Source: Eximiradius proteiniborus
GTDB taxonomy: Bacteria > Bacteroidota > Ignavibacteria > Kapaibacteriales > UBA2268
Direction of reading: 5' to 3'
Length of the DNA stretch: 55,965 nt
Assembly: GCA_026415495.1 (NCBI GenBank)
Contig: JAOAGZ010000007.1
Span: forward strand, 1-55,965
Under the pieces are notes generated by a model. That model saw only the letters and a program-made list of their open reading frames with translations. It was not told where the DNA came from and made no database searches. The translations under genes were made by a program, and so were the position numbers. Positions 1 through 52,147 of the stretch are shown here, piece after piece. Position 1 is the stretch's first letter. The number at the start of each line of letters is the position of its first letter.

Positions 1-756
1 GATATTAACCGACCCTTTCAAAAAGCGATTTTTTTCATTTAATTCTGATTGCTGAATTTGTTCTTTTTCAAAATTTACTATATTAGAAACGTTATCAGCT
101 GTAATTGCAACTATTGAATTGTCATGCAATAGTATTATTGCCAACTCTCTGTGTGCTTCTTTAATTGCTTGCTCTGCACTATCAAATAGATCTATCATTG
201 TTTTTAAATCAGTGTTTTTCACTTGTTCTAAAATCTTTAGAGCAGAGTTTTTACCATTCAACTCTTTTTCTTTTAGAACACGGTTCGCTATTGCGTGTAT
301 TCTCTTATGTGGTGCATCAAATTGCCTTAAATAAACCTCGAAGCCATAATTATCAGTTTTATAATTATCATACCATCTGCCAAAGGCACAAGCATGGGGA
401 TCCGTTGTTAAATTAAAATCTCCATCTTTTTCTACCGCTAAATAAAGTGTTTGCAGCCAGTTAATGTGATCCTGCTTCCTTTCTTGTAGCATCTGAAATA
501 ATTCTTTGTCGTATTCCAGAATTGAACGAAATCCTAATCGTTTTCGGGAATCAATAAGAGTTATTATGTTTTGACGTAGTTTTATCAATCCTCTTACAAA
601 TTCAGGTGAATTTGGCATAGGGGTTGCATCCGGGACAATCACAATTTCCTTAATCGGAAGAATTGATAAAGCATAAGAATTATCTGCTATTTGAATAACT
701 AAATACTGATTCAGATCAGTTTCTTCAATCTGCTTGTTTATTAGATCTACTTTCAT
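1..756 (-). CDS. CheW-like coupling protein with inserted CZB zinc-binding domain (partial, C-terminus off window)
   Basis: The reading frame is open from ATG (complement 754-756) to the window edge, 252 codons, so the C-terminus is missing. Residues 1-80 look like the first half of a CheW fold (YLVIQIADNSYALSI, then FVRGLIKLR...ITLIDSRKRLG). A chemoreceptor zinc-binding (CZB) signature follows: HxxW, then HACAFGRWY (HxCxxGxW), then HKRIH (HxxxH), giving the usual three-His, one-Cys ligand set. After it, ELAIILLHDNSIVAITADNVSNIV and FLKGSV match the second half of CheW. CZB therefore interrupts the coupling domain. CheW links receptors to CheA; CZB domains bind zinc and have been linked to oxidant sensing. 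A role tuning receptor-kinase coupling by zinc or redox is inference. An AGGGGA ribosome site precedes the ATG. Confidence 0.85.
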   Translation of the reverse strand, partial: MKVDLINKQIEETDLNQYLVIQIADNSYALSILPIKEIVIVPDATPMPNSPEFVRGLIKLRQNIITLIDSRKRLGFRSILEYDKELFQMLQERKQDHINWLQTLYLAVEKDGDFNLTTDPHACAFGRWYDNYKTDNYGFEVYLRQFDAPHKRIHAIANRVLKEKELNGKNSALKILEQVKNTDLKTMIDLFDSAEQAIKEAHRELAIILLHDNSIVAITADNVSNIVNFEKEQIQQSELNEKNRFLKGSVNI

Positions 757-881: not shown

Positions 882-2849
882 ATGAACCTGTCAGATAATA
901 TTTTTAATGTTTTAATAGTTGATGACAGTAATTTTTTCCGAGTTACTGCCAGAAAAATGATAGAAGATAATTTCCACGTTAGAATTTTCGAGGCAAGCAA
1001 CGCTTTCGAAGCTATGCGTTTGCTTGGAAACCATCCTATCGATATTATTCTTCTCGACGTAAATATGCCCGAAGTCGATGGTTTCAAAGCCGCTAAAATC
1101 ATCAAACATCAAGAGAAATATGCCGATATTCCAATTATTTTCTGCACTGCTATGCCTCCAACCAAAGAAGTAGTCAATCGGAGCTTCGATGTCGGTGGAA
1201 TTGACTTTCTTAATAAACCATTTACCGAAGCTGAAATTGTTCGCCTTCTTGCTCTATATTTCAGGTTTATTTTGCACGAAAGAGAAGTAAATCGTAAAAT
1301 TCGCGATAATCATAAATTGTTAGAAAAAGAGATCGAGGAACGCAAATTAGCCGAGAGAGCACTTCGTCAAAGCGAAGAAAAATTTAGAAAAATTACTTCA
1401 TCTGCTTACGACGCTATTTTAATGATTAACCAGGATAATAAAATTAATTTCTGGAATGAAGCCGCTTTTAGAATTTTTGGTTACTCCTCTAATGAAGTTC
1501 AAAACATTGATTTTATAAAATTAATTTCCTTACCCGGAAAATATCAGATAAACAATTCTAATTTTGAAGCGATCAAACAGTCGGCAAAAGATATTTTACT
1601 TTCTAAGCATTTCGAAATTCAAGCTATTCGCAAAGGTGGACATCCACTTGAACTTGAAGTTTCTGTTTCTTATGTAGAAATCTCAAACCAGGCAAACTAT
1701 ATTATTATCGCACGTGATATTACTCAAAGGAAACTCGAAGCTATGTTGCTCGCTAAAAGTGAAGCACTGCTTTCAGAAGCCGAATCAATTGCTCATTTCG
1801 GTAGCTGGGAATACGATTTACATTCTAACTCTATTACTTGGTCTAAAGAATTATATAGAATTTATGAAGTCAATCCAGAAGAAACTGTTCCTACAATTGA
1901 ACTTATTAAGAGTATGTTAAAACTCGAAGAATCAGCGCATTTTATGGAATTAGTTAATAAAGCTATCAACGAAGGAACTCCATACACTGTTGAAACTGAA
2001 ATAATTACTCCTAATGGCAACTTGAAAATTATTGAAGGGCGTGGCAGACCAGTTTATAATTCTGAAGGAAAAGTAATTAAACTTGTCGGAACAGCAATTG
2101 ACATTACTGAAAAGAAATTATCCCAAAGAAAATTAGAACAATATTTAGAAGAACTCAAAGAACTTAATGCAACTAAAGATAAATTCTTTTCAATTATTGC
2201 CCACGACCTGAAAAATCCTTTTGGCGCTTTGAAAAACCTTTCGGACATTCTACACTCAATGTATAATGACTTTTCCGAAGAAGAAAGAATTGAAATAATC
2301 AACGAAATTCATAATACTTCAATAAAGTTGTATGAATTACTCGAAAATCTCTTAACCTGGTCTCGTTCTCAAAGAGGTACACTTGATTTTAATCCCGATG
2401 AAACTAATCTTAAATTTATTGTGTCAAGCTGCGTTGAATTACTCAAAGGAAGTGCTAATAACAAATCAATAATACTTCAAGATAAAGTCGAGGATAATTT
2501 AGTAGTTTTTTGCGATGTGAATATGATTACTACTGTTGTCAGAAATCTAATGACAAATGCAATTAAATTCACTCCCGAAAATGGTGAAATTACTGTATTT
2601 GCAGAAAAGACAGATAATGAAGTTATTGTAGCTGTCAAAGACTCAGGTATTGGTATTTCCGACGAAGACAAACAAAAACTTTTCCGCATTGATGTTCACC
2701 ATACAACAATTGGCACTTCGCAAGAAAAGGGCACAGGGCTTGGACTTATTCTTTGCAAAGAATTTGTCGAGAAACACGGTGGGAAAATTTGGGTCGAGTC
2801 CGAAATAGGCAAAGGCTCTACTTTTAAATTTACTATTCCAATAAAATAA
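882..2849 (+). CDS. Receiver-PAS-PAS-histidine kinase
   Basis: A 655-residue sensor kinase with no obvious membrane segment. Residues 8-125 form a receiver domain (VDD at 13-15, phospho-acceptor Asp59 in ILLDVNMP, NKP near the end). A charged coiled coil (about 135-165) leads into two PAS domains (about 165-280 and 290-405; the second ends GTAIDITEKK). The HisKA dimerisation helix has FFSIIAHDLKNP with His441. The HATPase domain shows NLMTNAIKFTP (N box), DSGIGI (G1) and GTGLGLILCKEFVEKHGG (G2). With the receiver at the N-terminus the kinase probably receives a phosphate or acts in a relay; no partner regulator is adjacent. It is divergent from the CheW-CZB gene, 125 bp away, so co-function in signalling is possible but unproven. 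Confidence 0.9.
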   Translation: MNLSDNIFNVLIVDDSNFFRVTARKMIEDNFHVRIFEASNAFEAMRLLGNHPIDIILLDVNMPEVDGFKAAKIIKHQEKYADIPIIFCTAMPPTKEVVNRSFDVGGIDFLNKPFTEAEIVRLLALYFRFILHEREVNRKIRDNHKLLEKEIEERKLAERALRQSEEKFRKITSSAYDAILMINQDNKINFWNEAAFRIFGYSSNEVQNIDFIKLISLPGKYQINNSNFEAIKQSAKDILLSKHFEIQAIRKGGHPLELEVSVSYVEISNQANYIIIARDITQRKLEAMLLAKSEALLSEAESIAHFGSWEYDLHSNSITWSKELYRIYEVNPEETVPTIELIKSMLKLEESAHFMELVNKAINEGTPYTVETEIITPNGNLKIIEGRGRPVYNSEGKVIKLVGTAIDITEKKLSQRKLEQYLEELKELNATKDKFFSIIAHDLKNPFGALKNLSDILHSMYNDFSEEERIEIINEIHNTSIKLYELLENLLTWSRSQRGTLDFNPDETNLKFIVSSCVELLKGSANNKSIILQDKVEDNLVVFCDVNMITTVVRNLMTNAIKFTPENGEITVFAEKTDNEVIVAVKDSGIGISDEDKQKLFRIDVHHTTIGTSQEKGTGLGLILCKEFVEKHGGKIWVESEIGKGSTFKFTIPIK

Positions 2850-2916: not shown

Positions 2917-5900
2917 TTACTTTATTACTTGTATTTTCTGTGTGATTATTCCATAATCCGTTTGTAAAACTACTAAATAAACCGACGAGCTTAATTGTTT
3001 GCAATCAAATGTTGTGCTAAATATTCCTTCAGCTAAATAGTAATTATCTACAATCGTAGCAACAAGTTCACCTACTGAATTGAATATTTTCATTCTAAGG
3101 TAAGTAGGTTTTTCAATTTTGCAACAGATATGTATTTTGTCATTTGTTGGATTTGGAAATACATCCAGTCTATCCTTGCTAAGCATTGTTTCAGTTTGAT
3201 GTGGTTCATTATTGCTCATTATTATATCTACCGGATTAGACGGACATCCTTTTAAGCCATCCATATTATAGGAATATATTTTTATCTTGTATTTACTGAA
3301 ATCGTCAATTACGAATTCCTTTTTTGTCTCATTCTTTGAAGCCGATGCGAAAACTACTTCGTCTCCTGTGTATGTTTCACCCACAATCACATATCCAACA
3401 ACGTTATTTTCTTTCGACTTCTCCCATTCAACTACGCATTTCTCTTTATTAGTAACATATTTTGCAGTAATATTATTTGGTGGGAATAAAATAGATTTGC
3501 TATTTAATATTACTTCATTCGAGTAACTACTTAAAGTAAAATTATCATTTCTATAAACTGCATATAAATAATATCTACATAGTTGCATAGAGTCACTTAA
3601 TTTAATTCTTCCGTGCCCATCCAGTGCATTGAATGACGCGATATAAATACCATCTTCACCAATTGAATTATCGTCAAAATAAACTTCAACTATCCCGTTT
3701 GAATTTAATCCGCTTGTTCCCCAGTAAATATCTACTTCATCTAAGTTTTGAATCGTGTGAATTCTAAATTCAGGTTTTCCTTCAAATTTATAATAATTAA
3801 TAGAATAATTTTGTATTGTTGATAATACTTTTATTTGCCAAGTCCCAAGTTCAGGTTTGGTAATTGTCCAGAATGCTTTTTTTGATTGGCTGTCTTCAGA
3901 ATAAATTACATCTCCTTCATACTCTCCCGAAGGAAGATATTCTACCAAAGATGGACTAATCAATTGAGTCATTGGAACAGCATTTTCTCCAATTACTCTG
4001 ATAACTAATTTATCTAAAGAACTATTGACAATTATTTGCTCAACTGTGTTATCATTGAGTGCTGATTCACCTTTCTTAATAACAGTGCTTTCGGGTGTTC
4101 TTTCGAAAAAGAAAAAGTCGTCATCATCATAGTTCTTATTTAGATCAACCACATAACGTAACTTACCAATTTTAGTCCCTAAATTGGCTTCTCCCCACAA
4201 CACTTTTGATTTTCCAAACAGCAACCGAGCATCAGCATCAACTTTTTTCGGAAGACCTATTGTTGCATTTATCCAATCGAATGGCCAATCATCTCTTAAC
4301 TTTGGTATATCTAACTTCCCGGATACATATCCAGAAAACTTGCTCTGCCTCATATTGTATTTCAAATTCCCCTCTGTTGTCAAAAGATATTTTTCCTCAT
4401 CTTTTGTTCCAATATTTAAGTTTCCTTTTAGTTCCATTTGTGCAATTGAGAAGTCAATACTTCCTTCTATTCCTCCTTTCATTTGCCATTTTTTTAAAAA
4501 TGGATCTTTGAAAAGATTTGCCTCGCCTTTCATTCCAATTATGCTCGGAGTCTTAAAAAATCCTGAAATATCTATTTTATAAAGATCTTCAGAAGTAATA
4601 TCGGACAATATTCCTCCCAATTCGAATTCTAAACTCGGTTGAGTTATCCCTGAGATATGTCCAAAAAATCCGCTTATCCCAACAGTAGTGGTTCCTATTA
4701 CAAATAGTGGTGGGAACGATGCTTCCATTCTGAAGCCTATGCTATCGAGTTCTCCACCTATGAACGCCATTCCTCCTCCAACCTCTCCAAACGGTATTTT
4801 TACTGTTGCTCCAAAATCTAACCTATCCCTTTCGCTGTCGTATTCTCCAGATAATTTACTCAAACAGAAATTGGGGAACGATATAAATCCAAGATTTTCT
4901 ACTTTAAATCCTCCTAGCTCAAGTCCCGTTCGTTTTATCTCAAAATCTTTTACTTCAAATTCGGTATTTTTTACCTCATTATCTTCATTGCAACCAACTG
5001 AAATTCCAGGAACAGTTATCGTTGCTGTGATTTTCACTCCTTCCGCACGTCTTCCGCCAACTAATTGAATATCTTTTACCTTCAGTTTAAATCCTGCTAA
5101 GTTATCTGTGTAAGCATTTATAAAATCAGTTATTTTCCCATCGCTACCAAGAATTTTCAACTCATATTTGCCTTTTGCAATTGAAAAAGTCCCCACCCCA
5201 CCTAATGGCAATGGTATGTCTTTTACAAGAAATTCACCATCGCAACTTATTCCTAACTGTGCTGTATCAATTTCAATTTTGCCGACAAATTCAACTAAGT
5301 CATTAATTAACACTTTCCCGGTATTTTCAAGCTTTGTTGTTTTTTCAACTGGTTCCCACACTCCTTTTCCTTCAATACAAAATTCTAAAGCACCATCAAG
5401 AATACTCCAGCATTTCGTTCCTTTTATTACTGTTACTTTTCTCAACAACGTATCTGTTGTGATTTCCTCTTTCTCAGCATAAAAACCAAATGTATATTCG
5501 CCTTCGGTGTTTTCAGCAAACCTATATCCATATGTCAGCTTTGCTGTTAATGAATCAGTTATTCCAATTAGTTGGAAGCCTTTTTTCTCAACCGGATTGT
5601 TGATATATACTTTCACATTACCAACAGGTTTATTTTCAGCATTTCTGATATATATCAAATATGTCAATGAATCTTTTTCTGCAATTTCTACATCATTAGT
5701 AGGTAATACTTTCATACTTAAATTTGCTGTCAGAACCTTCAGCAATCGCTCAATTGTTTGCGAAGTTTTCAATCCCGTCTTTTTTGCCATAAATTTGATA
5801 GTGTATTCATTCGCATTTATGTTCGACGGAATCTTAAATGTATAATCAAATTTTCCATCTGAATTCGTATTCCCAATTTTAATGAATGTATCAGATAATA

Positions 5901-6825
5901 TTGAATTCAAACAATATATTTCTGCATTCTCAACATTATCATTATTATCATCAATTACAGTTAAACTATACTTTGCCTCTTTCCCAGCCTCTACTTCAAT
6001 TTCTTCCGATGGTGCAGCACTTACAAATAATTGCAAACTATCTACTAAGCTAACAATTCTCTCAATTGTATTTGAACGAAGTGTGTCCTTTTCTGCCCTG
6101 AAACTAAATTTATATTCACCAGCCACAGCATTCTGTGGTATTATGTAATTGTAATATAATATCCCATTTGCATTTGTTTGCCCGATTTGTATTTCGTTGT
6201 TTTCGTTTATGAACGGGTTAATACAATAGATGCTTGCGTTATCAATAGCTTTGTCTTTCAATGTGAATTGCATACCGAAACTTAATTGCATCGTAGGCGT
6301 TACAAACGACTTGTGATACTCAGAAACTACCAGTTCAGGTTTTGCTTCAGAATATGAAAAATTTCCCAAAACACGTCTGAACTTTGGAGCAAAATAACAA
6401 GCAGGCTCAAAATTAATAAATCCGGAAAAAACATTATTAGTCGTGTCGTATTGGAATATCTCAACATAACCATCAACTCCACAGCTTGAATAATCCTCCC
6501 ATCTAAGCATCGAAGCCTCTAACCACACATAATTATAACCTACTGCTGGTTTGCTTCGAAATGGCATAAAAATTTCTCTAAAACCACTCGAAAAATCTTT
6601 AATATAAATGCTATTTGTTGCATATTCTCGAATGGACATTATTCCTGTAACTATTGTTGTATCGTATGGATTTGTCCAGCCAACGCATTTCAATGTAACA
6701 GGGAATTCAGGCGTTTGATAATACGCAGAAACTTTTTCGTTCTGCACAATCATTGCAAAACAGATTATTGCGAGAACAATGATGTTTCGCAATGAAATAG
6801 ACAAATTTGTAGTAAAATTGTTCAT
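2917..6825 (-). CDS. Giant T9SS-sorted surface protein with Ig-like repeats
   Basis: A 1302-residue secreted protein. The N-terminus carries a signal-anchor-like hydrophobic stretch (NIIVLAIICFAMIV). Three Big-1-like repeats follow at roughly residues 185-480, each with a pattern such as ADKxGL-like then 'NANG.L.YNY..P', ending in 'ER.V.L' or similar. The middle (about 500-940) is rich in short alternating beta strands with many Gly and Phe residues and resembles no family I can name. It ends in a DDDDFFFF tract. An FnIII-like region follows, and the last 80 residues are a type IX sorting domain (RLDVFPNPTNDKIHI...GIITQKIQVIK). Known cargo with this tail crosses the outer membrane by T9SS and is anchored or released. 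The specific function is unknown. Confidence 0.85.
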   Translation of the reverse strand: MNNFTTNLSISLRNIIVLAIICFAMIVQNEKVSAYYQTPEFPVTLKCVGWTNPYDTTIVTGIMSIREYATNSIYIKDFSSGFREIFMPFRSKPAVGYNYVWLEASMLRWEDYSSCGVDGYVEIFQYDTTNNVFSGFINFEPACYFAPKFRRVLGNFSYSEAKPELVVSEYHKSFVTPTMQLSFGMQFTLKDKAIDNASIYCINPFINENNEIQIGQTNANGILYYNYIIPQNAVAGEYKFSFRAEKDTLRSNTIERIVSLVDSLQLFVSAAPSEEIEVEAGKEAKYSLTVIDDNNDNVENAEIYCLNSILSDTFIKIGNTNSDGKFDYTFKIPSNINANEYTIKFMAKKTGLKTSQTIERLLKVLTANLSMKVLPTNDVEIAEKDSLTYLIYIRNAENKPVGNVKVYINNPVEKKGFQLIGITDSLTAKLTYGYRFAENTEGEYTFGFYAEKEEITTDTLLRKVTVIKGTKCWSILDGALEFCIEGKGVWEPVEKTTKLENTGKVLINDLVEFVGKIEIDTAQLGISCDGEFLVKDIPLPLGGVGTFSIAKGKYELKILGSDGKITDFINAYTDNLAGFKLKVKDIQLVGGRRAEGVKITATITVPGISVGCNEDNEVKNTEFEVKDFEIKRTGLELGGFKVENLGFISFPNFCLSKLSGEYDSERDRLDFGATVKIPFGEVGGGMAFIGGELDSIGFRMEASFPPLFVIGTTTVGISGFFGHISGITQPSLEFELGGILSDITSEDLYKIDISGFFKTPSIIGMKGEANLFKDPFLKKWQMKGGIEGSIDFSIAQMELKGNLNIGTKDEEKYLLTTEGNLKYNMRQSKFSGYVSGKLDIPKLRDDWPFDWINATIGLPKKVDADARLLFGKSKVLWGEANLGTKIGKLRYVVDLNKNYDDDDFFFFERTPESTVIKKGESALNDNTVEQIIVNSSLDKLVIRVIGENAVPMTQLISPSLVEYLPSGEYEGDVIYSEDSQSKKAFWTITKPELGTWQIKVLSTIQNYSINYYKFEGKPEFRIHTIQNLDEVDIYWGTSGLNSNGIVEVYFDDNSIGEDGIYIASFNALDGHGRIKLSDSMQLCRYYLYAVYRNDNFTLSSYSNEVILNSKSILFPPNNITAKYVTNKEKCVVEWEKSKENNVVGYVIVGETYTGDEVVFASASKNETKKEFVIDDFSKYKIKIYSYNMDGLKGCPSNPVDIIMSNNEPHQTETMLSKDRLDVFPNPTNDKIHICCKIEKPTYLRMKIFNSVGELVATIVDNYYLAEGIFSTTFDCKQLSSSVYLVVLQTDYGIITQKIQVIK

Positions 6826-9600: not shown

Positions 9601-9612
9601 TTATTTATGCTA

Positions 9613-10377
9613 TTATTTCATTATTTCGTTCAAATAATCAATATCTTCGTTGCTCTGCTCTTCTTTTATGCTTTGTTCCTGCTCAATAGAAAAATCATTT
9701 AAGTCATCATTAATTGATATTGACGTTTCTGGCAACGAAAATTGTTCATTACTATCTTCAATTAAGTCAGCCACACCATCTGAATTAACTTCCTCTTCCT
9801 TTTGATTAATTGGCGGTATTTGTTTAGCTTCCTGCTTTGATGACAACATTTCAGGCTCTTTATACTCATTGCTTCTCATAGAAGCCAAATCACGTTCTAA
9901 TATCTGCAGTTTTGCTTCTTCTGCTTCTCTCAATCTTTGTGTTTCGATTTCTTCTCTTTCTCGTTCAATTCGCTGTTGTTCTTCAAGTTCCTTCTTTTTA
10001 TCCTCGCTTATCATCAATACAGTGGCTACCATAATTATTCCGATTCCGAAATAAAAAAATGTAAAAATCAGGAACAAATATATCAGTGTTGTTTTTAAAT
10101 CTAATTCAAGCCAAAAATACAAAACAATAGACATTATCATTGTTGCAAGCAACGATAAATGAAGCAACAACTTGAACGGAAGATTAACTAATGTTTTTAT
10201 TCGCTTAATTTCTTGTTTGCGTTCTTCTTTAATTCTTTTTTCTTTGAGCTTCCGCTTTTGCTCTTTTTCTTTTTGCATTTTAGCAATAAGAGCTTTTTCT
10301 TCCTTTTCCTTTTGCTTAAGCTCCTTTTCTCGCTTCTGTTCTTCTGGTGATAATATTTTACTCTCTTCTTTTGCCAT
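9613..10377 (-). CDS. Coiled-coil / two-membrane-helix / coiled-coil protein of unknown function
   Basis: A 254-residue protein I cannot assign to a family. Residues 1-62 are a Lys/Glu-rich amphipathic helix (EEQKREKELKQKEKEEKAL and similar). Residues about 66-122 hold two hydrophobic helices (LPFKLLLHLSLLATMIMSIVLYF, then TTLIYLFLIFTFFYFGIGIIMV). Residues 128-170 form a second Glu/Arg-rich coiled coil. The last 80 residues are acidic and low complexity. Both ends would face the cytoplasm if the helices form a hairpin. It sits 50 bases after flhG and 12 bases before fliA on the same strand, so it is very probably co-transcribed with them. A role in flagellar placement or assembly is inference from that position. 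Confidence 0.75.
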   Translation of the reverse strand: MAKEESKILSPEEQKREKELKQKEKEEKALIAKMQKEKEQKRKLKEKRIKEERKQEIKRIKTLVNLPFKLLLHLSLLATMIMSIVLYFWLELDLKTTLIYLFLIFTFFYFGIGIIMVATVLMISEDKKKELEEQQRIEREREEIETQRLREAEEAKLQILERDLASMRSNEYKEPEMLSSKQEAKQIPPINQKEEEVNSDGVADLIEDSNEQFSLPETSISINDDLNDFSIEQEQSIKEEQSNEDIDYLNEIMK

Positions 10378-10427
10378 TTTCGATTACTTTTTCTTATTTA
10401 TACGAATTTAGTTTCAAAAATTGTATG

Positions 10428-11231
10428 TTAATTTGATATTTCGTTTGTAGCATATACTGATTTGTTCGTTCTTTGAAAAATATACCGGCAAAACTCGCGT
10501 ACAGCTTTGCTTATTTCCTCATCTGGATCTGTTTGAACAAATATTTCTTGTTTTATTATCGATTGCCGTACAATTCTACTATATGGGATTATTCCTGCAA
10601 CTTCTGCCTTGAAACCTAAAAATTTCTCAGTTGCAAGATTCATTTTTGTTGCAATGTCGCTTCCATCATCTAAATCAATTGTGTTATTTACTATTAGTTT
10701 TATTTTATCTATATCCATATATTCTCTAAAAACCTTTATCAGAGCATACCCATCAAGTAGCGAAGTCGGTTCGTCAGTAATCACTAAACAATTAATATCT
10801 GAAATTAATGCCAATTCCATATTAATATTATTCAATCCAGCAGGTGTATCAAAAATTATATAATCATAGTTTGTTTTATTAATTAAATCTCGATAAATAT
10901 CTTCAAAACGGAATTTATCCTCCTCATCATTTGAAAATGTTGCTGGTTCGTCAGATAATATATGCAAATTCTCATTAATAGTGAAGATAGCTTTCTCAAC
11001 TGGTACTATACCTTTATATACGTCGCCAAGCCGGATAGGTGGTTCAACTCCATAAAATAAATGAGTATTTGGAAATTTTCTGTTTGCATCCCATACCAAT
11101 ACTTTACAGTTCATCTCCGACAAAACGTATGCTACATTTGCCGAAAGAACACTTTTCCCTACCCCTCCTTTTCCACTAATAAATGATATTTTATAAGGTG
11201 TATGTTTGAGTTCGCTCATCTGTTGAACCAT
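10428..11231 (-). CDS. flhG: FlhG/MinD-like ATPase (flagellar number control)
   Basis: A 267-residue deviant-Walker ATPase: FISGKGGVGKS near the N-terminus, DANRKFPNTH as switch I region, and YDYIIFDTPAGLN as the Walker B/switch II. MinD-family proteins of this length next to flhF limit flagellar number and stimulate FlhF GTPase. The N-terminal tail before the P-loop is only about 14 residues and lacks an obvious DQAxxLR activation motif, so coupling to FlhF may differ from that in Bacillus or Vibrio. The C-terminus ends without an obvious long amphipathic membrane-targeting helix. It starts 3 bases after the flhF stop, showing tight operon coupling. Confidence 0.88.
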   Translation of the reverse strand: MVQQMSELKHTPYKISFISGKGGVGKSVLSANVAYVLSEMNCKVLVWDANRKFPNTHLFYGVEPPIRLGDVYKGIVPVEKAIFTINENLHILSDEPATFSNDEEDKFRFEDIYRDLINKTNYDYIIFDTPAGLNNINMELALISDINCLVITDEPTSLLDGYALIKVFREYMDIDKIKLIVNNTIDLDDGSDIATKMNLATEKFLGFKAEVAGIIPYSRIVRQSIIKQEIFVQTDPDEEISKAVREFCRYIFQRTNKSVYATNEISN

Positions 11232-22634: not shown

Positions 22635-23237
22635 CTATTTCTTTCTATAAATATTTGCGTCTGAACATACTTTTTCAAACAAGTGTGAGCATTCTTCTGG
22701 AAGTGTTTGTGTTTGTTCTGTAGTTAGCAATCCATCTTTAAGTAATACAGAATTAAACATTTTTATTACATTAATTCTTTCTTCCGGTTGAAAATGTAGT
22801 AAAACATTTTTACAAATAATTGCGTTAAAACCATTATCGAGAGGTTTCAAGGACAGTAAATCGTGTTGCTCAAAGTGCAAACTGTTTCTGATAATATCAT
22901 TTATTTGATAATTTTCACGATCATCTATTTTGTGAAAATACTTTTCTAAAATATTTGGTGGCATACGCGATAAATCAGAATAAGGATATACTCCTTGTGT
23001 GATTATTTCCTTGAAATTGCTTGTTTCATCAATATCAGTTGCTAATATCGATACCTTTTTGTATTTCTCGGGACCTATCGCTTCGCACAAAATAATTCCA
23101 AATGTATATGGTTCTGGTCCCATCGCACATCCGGCATCCCAAACTTTTATTTTTGCGTAACTATCGATTTGAGGCAGTAGAAAACTTGTAAGTTGTTCCA
23201 ATGTATGCCTATCGCGAAAAAAAAATGTAAAAGCCAT
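22635..23237 (-). CDS. CheR-like SAM-dependent methyltransferase, N-terminal domain missing
   Basis: A 200-residue protein using the ATG at complement 23235-23237, which follows the EVE stop directly and has an AGAGGA ribosome site; a longer start at 23267 overlaps the EVE gene. TFFFRDRHTLEQLTSFLLPQI and WDAGCAMGPEPYTFGIIL are the CheR linker and SAM-binding motif I. ILATDIDE, FNAIICKNVLLHF and the end IYRK follow CheR order. The alpha-helical N-terminal CheR domain is absent, so substrate recognition may differ. Methylation of a chemoreceptor glutamate is possible, but the flanking genes are not chemotaxis genes. Confidence 0.75.
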   Translation of the reverse strand: MAFTFFFRDRHTLEQLTSFLLPQIDSYAKIKVWDAGCAMGPEPYTFGIILCEAIGPEKYKKVSILATDIDETSNFKEIITQGVYPYSDLSRMPPNILEKYFHKIDDRENYQINDIIRNSLHFEQHDLLSLKPLDNGFNAIICKNVLLHFQPEERINVIKMFNSVLLKDGLLTTEQTQTLPEECSHLFEKVCSDANIYRKK

Positions 23238-23238
23238 T

Positions 23239-23655
23239 TTATTCCTCTTTGGTTCTTGAAAACTCAATTATTCTATTATAGTCATCTTCTGTAATTGGCA
23301 TTACAGATAATCGCTGCTGCCTGACCAATGCAATATTATTTAAAATAGTATCTTTCTTTATTGTTTCTAAGCTAACCGGATTTTCGAGCATTGAAATAAA
23401 ACGCAACTCGACTGCTAACCAACGAACATCTTCTGCCGTCGGATCCGGGAAAGCCTCTTTCGAAACCTCAGCAATCCCAACTATTGCTTTATCAATATTA
23501 CTGTGATAAATCAACACAGTATCGCCAACAGCCATTTTAGCTAAGTTGTTTCTTGCTTGAAAATTCCTGACACCATCCCAAATCGTTTTTCCATCTCTTT
23601 GCAAATCAAAGATGGAATATGTTTCAGGGTCAGATTTTGCAATCCAGTACGCCAT
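23239..23655 (-). CDS. EVE domain protein
   Basis: A 138-residue single-domain protein. MAYWIAKSDPETYSIFDLQRDGKTIWDGVRNFQARNNL is the EVE (PUA-like) opening; MAVGDTVLIYHSN and GIAEVSKEAFPDPTAED follow in family order. EVE domains bind modified bases in DNA or RNA through an aromatic cage. The biological ligand here is unknown. The ATG overlaps the stop of the upstream lipoprotein gene by one base. Confidence 0.9.
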   Translation of the reverse strand: MAYWIAKSDPETYSIFDLQRDGKTIWDGVRNFQARNNLAKMAVGDTVLIYHSNIDKAIVGIAEVSKEAFPDPTAEDVRWLAVELRFISMLENPVSLETIKKDTILNNIALVRQQRLSVMPITEDDYNRIIEFSRTKEE

Positions 23656-50569: not shown

Positions 50570-52147
50570 TTATCTCTGCTCTAATTCAATTATTGGAACT
50601 ATCATTTCTTCAAGTGAAATACCACCGTGCTGTAAACTATCTTTGTATCTGTTCAAATACTGATGATAATCCGTAGGATAAACGAAATAGTAGTCTTCTT
50701 TGGCAATAATATTATTTACAGAAATACCTAACGATGGAATTTTATATTTTGTCAAATCAGGAATTTGCATAGCATGCCGTTTATCTGCTTTAACGTTTTT
50801 CCCAAATTTGTATCGTAAATTAGTTGAAGTATCTCTATCTCCCAAGACTTTTACTCCTCGCATACAGCGTATCGACCCATGGTCAGTTGTTATTATTATC
50901 TTAATATCTTTTCTCTCCGATAATGATTTTAATATCCCAAATAAACTTGAATGCCTAAACCACGAACTTGTTAGACTTCTATATGCAGCTTCGTCTGGGG
51001 CAATCTCTTTCAGAATAGCATAATCCGAACGACTATGAGCAATCATATCCACTGCATTTATTACAACTGCTGTTATGCTGTTATCAACATAATCATTTAT
51101 TTCGCGTTCGATTTTTCTACCAAAATCTGTATCGAAAATTTTAATAAAACCTACCTTTCCATTCGTTTTAATCCGTCTTCGCTCGAGCCAGGTTTCGAGT
51201 AATTCTTTTTCATACGCGTTTTGCTTGTGGTCTTCTGTGTTCGAATCAACATTCCACCATTGTGGAAAATATTTTTTTATATCAATAGGGTATAGCCCTG
51301 CAAATATTGAATTTCGAGCATAGGGAGTAGCTGTCGGAAGAATTGAAGAATAATAATTTGTTTTGAATGTATAATATGGTTGAAGTAGTTCTTTCATCAT
51401 CAACCATTGGTCTAATCTCATACAATCAACTACAAAATAAAATACTTTTTTGCCTTCCCGAAGATGTGGAAGCACATAATAATCCGACACGTGAGGCGAT
51501 AATACTGGATAATCATCATTTCGTTTGTCGTCAGGGTGATTGATCCAATCAATATAATTATTCTCGACAAATTTTGAAAATTCCGTATTACATTCACGCC
51601 ACTTGTCTTGTAAAGTTTGAATTAATCCCTCTTCGTTATGTCTATCGAGTTCTATTGACCAGTTTACCAACTGAATATATATATCTCTCCAATCGCCCCA
51701 ATTTAGCGGTTCGAGCATCTTCATCGAAAGTTGCGCAAATCCCGAAAGGTAGTCCTGTGTGAATTTTTCTTTTTCAATTCGTTCTCCTTCGATGAATTTT
51801 TTGCAGGCAAGTAATATTTGTGTAGGATTTACAGGCTTTGTGAGATAATCGTCTATCTTCTTTCCAATTGCCTCTTCCATTACGCTTTCTGCTTCATTCT
51901 TAGTAACCATTACAATTGGAGTTGTAGAGTCAATTTCTTTTATCCGTGATAACGTTTCAAGTCCACTTATCCCCACCATCATTTCGTCCAAAAAAATTAA
52001 ATCATAATGCGTTCGGCGAACCATTTCTATTGCATCCTCGCCGTTTGTTGCCGTCTCTGTTTCAAAACCACGTTGATTTAGTAAAATAATATGTGGTTTC
52101 AACAATTCGATCTCATCGTCAATCCACAGGATTTTCCCTTTTTTCAT
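50570..52147 (-). CDS. porX: PorX-type response regulator with alkaline-phosphatase-superfamily (PglZ) domain
   Basis: A 525-residue protein. Residues 1-125 are a receiver domain (ILWIDDE, Asp54 in IFLDEMMVGISG, VMVTKN, YLTKP). A helical bundle (about 130-205) links it to a PglZ/phosphatase-like domain: VFYFVVDCMRLDQW (metal Asp and nucleophile region), NSIFAGLYPIDIKKYFP, and KIIITTDHGSIRC (metal DHG). This architecture is that of PorX, the type IX secretion regulator of Porphyromonas and Flavobacterium, which pairs with the PorY kinase and the sigma factor SigP. PorX is reported to have phosphodiesterase activity on oligonucleotides. The three T9SS cargo genes in this window make the assignment coherent. 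Confidence 0.9.
   Translation of the reverse strand: MKKGKILWIDDEIELLKPHIILLNQRGFETETATNGEDAIEMVRRTHYDLIFLDEMMVGISGLETLSRIKEIDSTTPIVMVTKNEAESVMEEAIGKKIDDYLTKPVNPTQILLACKKFIEGERIEKEKFTQDYLSGFAQLSMKMLEPLNWGDWRDIYIQLVNWSIELDRHNEEGLIQTLQDKWRECNTEFSKFVENNYIDWINHPDDKRNDDYPVLSPHVSDYYVLPHLREGKKVFYFVVDCMRLDQWLMMKELLQPYYTFKTNYYSSILPTATPYARNSIFAGLYPIDIKKYFPQWWNVDSNTEDHKQNAYEKELLETWLERRRIKTNGKVGFIKIFDTDFGRKIEREINDYVDNSITAVVINAVDMIAHSRSDYAILKEIAPDEAAYRSLTSSWFRHSSLFGILKSLSERKDIKIIITTDHGSIRCMRGVKVLGDRDTSTNLRYKFGKNVKADKRHAMQIPDLTKYKIPSLGISVNNIIAKEDYYFVYPTDYHQYLNRYKDSLQHGGISLEEMIVPIIELEQR

Follow-up and report, generated by a model that had tools for sequence, protein, structure and literature searches.

Sensor domains built on CZB, and sensor domains attached to CheW, have both been described. 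In Helicobacter pylori TlpD, CZB lies at the end of a chemoreceptor, and in Escherichia coli DgcZ it lies beside a cyclase domain; the protein described here apparently shares with both the CZB fold and the three-His, one-Cys zinc ligands, but carries them within an adaptor fold. As passages of two sources put it, HOCl reacts at the zinc-bound Cys in the CZB domains of TlpD, McpA and DgcZ, and CZB zinc affinity is extremely tight, below femtomolar (PMC6715182, PMC8262984). The pairing of CheW with CZB in one protein is itself known: passages of Perkins et al. (2021, mBio, PMC8262984) put CheW-CZB at 1.4% of 10,140 CZB sequences, with its highest abundance in Clostridia, which are also among the hosts found here. 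Those passages, the figure aside, yielded nothing on the topology, receptor contacts or function of this subgroup. A second precedent is CheWS of Treponema denticola, in which a sensor domain attached to the CheW adaptor gives direct input from inside the array; in CheWS the sensor is a CheR-like SAM-binding domain that is C-terminal to CheW rather than inserted, and the CheWS paper names CheW-CZB as another case of a fused sensor (PMC10653840). In the literature passages covered, we found no description of a nested topology, an exact insertion point or altered contact positions, so that the pairing is established, whereas the insertion topology and the altered receptor-contact residues are apparently undescribed.

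The window (the whole stretch of DNA analysed, 55,965 nucleotides from Eximiradius proteiniborus) opens with a minus-strand reading frame of 252 amino acids that starts at base 756 and has no stop by base 1, where the window edge is the end of contig C141. The preliminary description had noted that the protein is cut by the window edge, and this is so: it is a CheW-CZB protein of which 252 of about 268 residues are present, the C-terminus being lost at the contig end. A full-length orthologue (locus L002, 6143-6949) has 268 residues and is 94% identical to it. The features are as follows.

1..756, minus strand: CheW-CZB gene (reading frame, Pfam and orthologue L002)
517..708, minus strand: N-terminal half of CheW, residues 17-80 (Pfam PF01584 positions 1-64; strands 1-5 in the orthologue model)
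274..468, minus strand: CZB domain, residues 97-161, full PF13682 profile; predicted ligands H97, C123, H150 and H154
154..273, minus strand: final helices of the insert, about residues 162-201, after which the chain returns to CheW (L002 model; alignment to the DgcZ CZB)
1..150, minus strand: C-terminal half of CheW, from residue 203; Pfam CheW positions 68-118 (Pfam)
882..2849, plus strand: divergently oriented neighbour, a receiver-PAS-PAS-HisKA-HATPase hybrid, outside the insertion (Pfam)

In the window protein Pfam finds CheW in two stretches (E 6.5e-19, the best at residues 17-80) and, between them, CZB over its full profile (E 8.9e-14). A CheW match on the C-terminal side of CZB had been set beforehand as the check on nesting, and it is present: the C-terminal 52 amino acids, taken by themselves, give a match to positions 68-118 of the CheW profile (E 4.4e-4), and the complete C-terminal part of the orthologue extends this to positions 68-134 (E 3.7e-9). 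Across full-length relatives, positions 1-65 of the Pfam CheW profile precede CZB and positions 68-134 come after it, and the best whole-protein match to PF01584 reaches E 1.8e-25 with both halves covered. CZB is therefore nested between CheW positions 65 and 68 rather than terminal, as the preliminary description had proposed from the motifs.

Structure prediction gave the same arrangement. The AlphaFold2 model of the orthologue (41-sequence alignment, mean pLDDT 90.6, pTM 0.79) runs in the order five strands (residues 17-68), helical bundle (79-201), five strands (205-260). VIA-align superposed its residues 14-268 on CheW 2ch4_Y with Z 19.0 and rmsd 2.3 over 135 of 140 residues, and its residues 82-200 on the DgcZ CZB 3t9o_B with Z 12.6 over 115 of 120. 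A model of the Acetobacterium dehalogenans protein (pLDDT 89.8) has the same layout, with Z 17.0 to CheW (132/140 residues) and 12.8 to 3t9o_B (116/120). Both predicted models thus combine the two five-stranded barrels of a complete CheW fold, as in the ordinary CheWs of E. coli and T. maritima, with a four-helix CZB bundle that those proteins do not have. Middling Z values are easily reached by helical bundles, and we therefore rest the CZB assignment on the sequence match. By alignment the insert lies in the inter-subdomain loop between strands 5 and 6, replacing residues 79-84 of E. coli CheW. An ordinary CheW of the same genome is matched by the CheW-CZB family profile at positions 4-72 and 197-261, the two matches being separated by about 15 bases; because it aligns on both sides with so few residues in between, what sets the two proteins apart is the insert of about 120 residues. 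We regard the nested topology as well supported, by sequence profiles and predicted structures as well as by relatives and the genome's own ordinary CheWs.

A scan of GTDB contigs yielded 49 loci with a relative, in Kapabacteria/Ignavibacteria, Bacillota (Acetobacterium, Lacrimispora, Oscillospiraceae), Magnetococcales, Planctomycetota, Desulfovibrio and others. The 41 that were aligned come from at least five phyla; every one matches both Pfam families in the same layout, and the length of the insert is confined to 125-135 amino acids. Because the loci had been retrieved by peptide patterns, RKQDHINW among them, ten loci found by profile served as a cross-check; two of these (L063 and L064) apparently repeat the genes of L010 and L005, leaving eight new members, mostly from the window's own GTDB family. 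Occurrence in that family is patchy, with a full-length-type match (E below 1e-40) in 16 of 36 genomes, and in an even sample of the whole phylum a match (E below 1e-25) occurred in 8 of 395. One Magnetococcales genome holds a tandem pair of CheW-CZB genes (L017:8616-9602 and 9606-10496), and several Magnetococcales reading frames have two CZB matches each (G073:C20, G068:C38, G067:C78 and G067:C40; genomes of loci L041, L023 and L021), their genomes having some ten CZB matches apiece.

A tree built without the insert, from 41 CheW-CZB and 30 ordinary CheW sequences, separated the two kinds by one label change with support 97/98, the ordinary CheWs being the best-scoring ones of the searched genomes plus that of E. 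coli, with divergent CheWs left out. The same split was recovered under a mixture model without the four longest rows (support 87/89). These sequence relationships are compatible with a single insertion event for the family.

By homology to the known three-His, one-Cys site, the zinc ligands are predicted to be H97 (of the HxxW motif), C123, H150 and H154. These four residues are invariant in the 41 aligned members, as are Trp100, Gly126, Trp128 and Asp221, and the four are also kept in the eight further members found by profile. The ligand set first proposed (HxxW, HxCxxGxW, HxxxH) thus stands for these residues but not for the first His of HxCxxGxW, H121, which is conserved in only 36 of 41 members and probably does not bind the zinc. 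Nor should the whole RKQDHINW motif be read as invariant, since its constancy is partly an artefact of fetching relatives with that peptide pattern; in members found by profile the first motif relaxes to R-E-x-D/E-H-x-x-W. The Cys motif C-A-F-G-x-W has Ala after Cys in 35 of 41 members, and this Ala type was also noted, in the passages cited, for the CheW-CZB subgroup of Perkins et al. (PMC8262984).

Contact positions, numbered by E. coli CheW, were compared between the 41 CheW-CZB rows and 29 ordinary CheWs. Kept in common are Gly57 (40/41), Asp103 (41/41) and mostly Arg62 (32/41, among them the five rows of the window's clade). An acidic residue occupies position 107 in 28 of 29 ordinary CheWs but in none of the 41 CheW-CZB rows or the eight new members, and Pro120 falls from 28/29 to 0/41, a divergence that may be overstated since the ordinary set consists of high-scoring CheWs. 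Asn60 and Gly63 are likewise conserved in the compared ordinary CheWs and not in CheW-CZB, Asn60 being mostly changed. Glu38 is kept in the five rows of the window's clade, whereas most of the other 36 have Ser, Thr, Gly or Ala in its place; Glu is present at this position in six of the eight new members. In E. coli CheW, the Glu38-Arg62 salt bridge sets the geometry that keeps the receptor and kinase sites aligned with each other (PMC3828127), and simulations found D107-R404 to be a strong CheW-receptor contact (PMC6954272). The window's clade keeps the equivalents of the salt-bridge pair as E37 and R61. Judged from these residues, the loss of the acid at 107, of Pro120, mostly of Asn60 and, outside the window's relatives, of Glu38 suggests that the protein may bind receptor or kinase weakly or in another way, and together with an insert in the inter-subdomain loop it suggests that CheW-CZB may couple differently from ordinary CheW.

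The genome itself has nine CheW matches, including two CheA-like reading frames, and MCP signalling domains on four contigs; its single CZB domain is that of the window protein. In a close relative (L003), a cheA-cheW-cheR-cheB cluster lies about 4 kb downstream of CheW-CZB, the interval holding genes that resemble gyrase, RecX and YgjP (the first two assigned by eye from their translations), and FlhF-, FlhG- and FliA-like genes, likewise assigned by eye, occur further along the window. More distant relatives (Acetobacterium, Lacrimispora, Planctomycetes and others) mostly carry the gene on its own, the sampled neighbours being housekeeping or unrelated, and flagellar genes are near it in one Magnetococcales and one Desulfovibrio locus. 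The divergent neighbour was correctly recognized at the outset as a receiver-kinase hybrid. We rejected it as a partner: the adjacency is kept only in the closest relatives and is therefore no evidence for partnership. The window also encodes a protein with a CheR SAM-binding domain (22635-23267, minus strand; Pfam E 5.8e-37), apart from the cheAWRB cluster and with no CheR_N domain detected by Pfam; a protein of 1302 residues (2917-6825, minus strand) that has a C-terminal sorting domain for type IX secretion and no other Pfam match at 1e-4; and a receiver-PglZ protein of PorX-like domain layout (50570-52147, minus strand).

Every CZB match fell within a CheW-CZB reading frame in this genome and in 11 of the 15 relatives' genomes scanned, so any CZB signal there most likely enters through CheW. 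Given the known HOCl chemistry of CZB and the CheWS precedent, we therefore favour (at a probability of roughly 0.58) a CheW protein that serves the flagellar chemosensory array as an accessory adaptor and whose inserted CZB would pass on zinc or oxidant state to CheA, the signal and output being those we infer. CheW-CZB would take some of the CheW positions in the CheA/CheW rings, and CZB would sense either cytoplasmic zinc availability or oxidant attack on the zinc-bound Cys, perhaps through a Cys-Zn switch like that of TlpD and DgcZ. Since the bundle is tethered at either end to the inter-subdomain loop, its loosening would move the two CheW subdomains relative to each other, and this shift would change the control of CheA without a dedicated receptor. 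That zinc or oxidant binding could alter the coupling surface of CheW, as originally suggested, is thus plausible.

The main rival to this accessory sensor is a CheW-derived competitor or decoy that would hold the CheA P5 or CheW ring position with a poor grip on receptor tips, zinc then governing a lowering or dispersal of array activity. Such a role would suit the family-wide loss of the 107 acid and Pro120 and the frequent loss of Glu38 and Asn60, as well as the presence of other CheW-bearing proteins in all 15 relatives' genomes checked. It fits less well with the window's own clade, where both salt-bridge residues, Gly57 and Asp103 are kept, and it leans on a comparison with high-scoring canonical CheWs that may exaggerate the divergence; we consider it unlikely.

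Less probable still is that the CZB bundle serves structure or localisation and does not act as a switch, its zinc a permanent structural ion and its task the positioning of CheW in particular arrays. The sub-femtomolar affinity cited above speaks for this, and so do the many hosts that, by record titles, belong to anaerobic or sediment lineages, where HOCl would be an unlikely natural signal; there, zinc availability or other oxidants would be more plausible inputs to an accessory sensor. Against it stands the invariance of the Cys, which is the ligand that reacts in known CZB switches, where another ligand could have served. As for a chimeric reading frame misassembled at the contig end, the gene does lie at such an end in a genome of 163 contigs, but the same architecture recurs at the 49 loci, which come from many independent genomes and among them those of cultured Acetobacterium and Lacrimispora; this already refutes the explanation and leaves it a negligible probability.

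A broader proposal, which we offer tentatively and hold less probable than the accessory sensor, is that all CheW-CZB proteins descend from one ancient insertion and that in them the adaptor is itself the sensor: the zinc bundle would act on the subdomain joint, part of the receptor contact would have been given up, and the array would come under cytoplasmic zinc or redox control without a dedicated receptor. Most chemotaxis inputs come via receptors, and a sensor in the adaptor joint would be a receptor-independent entry point. CheW-CZB would also offer a clean test of whether it is the geometry of CheW, or its mere presence, that controls CheA.
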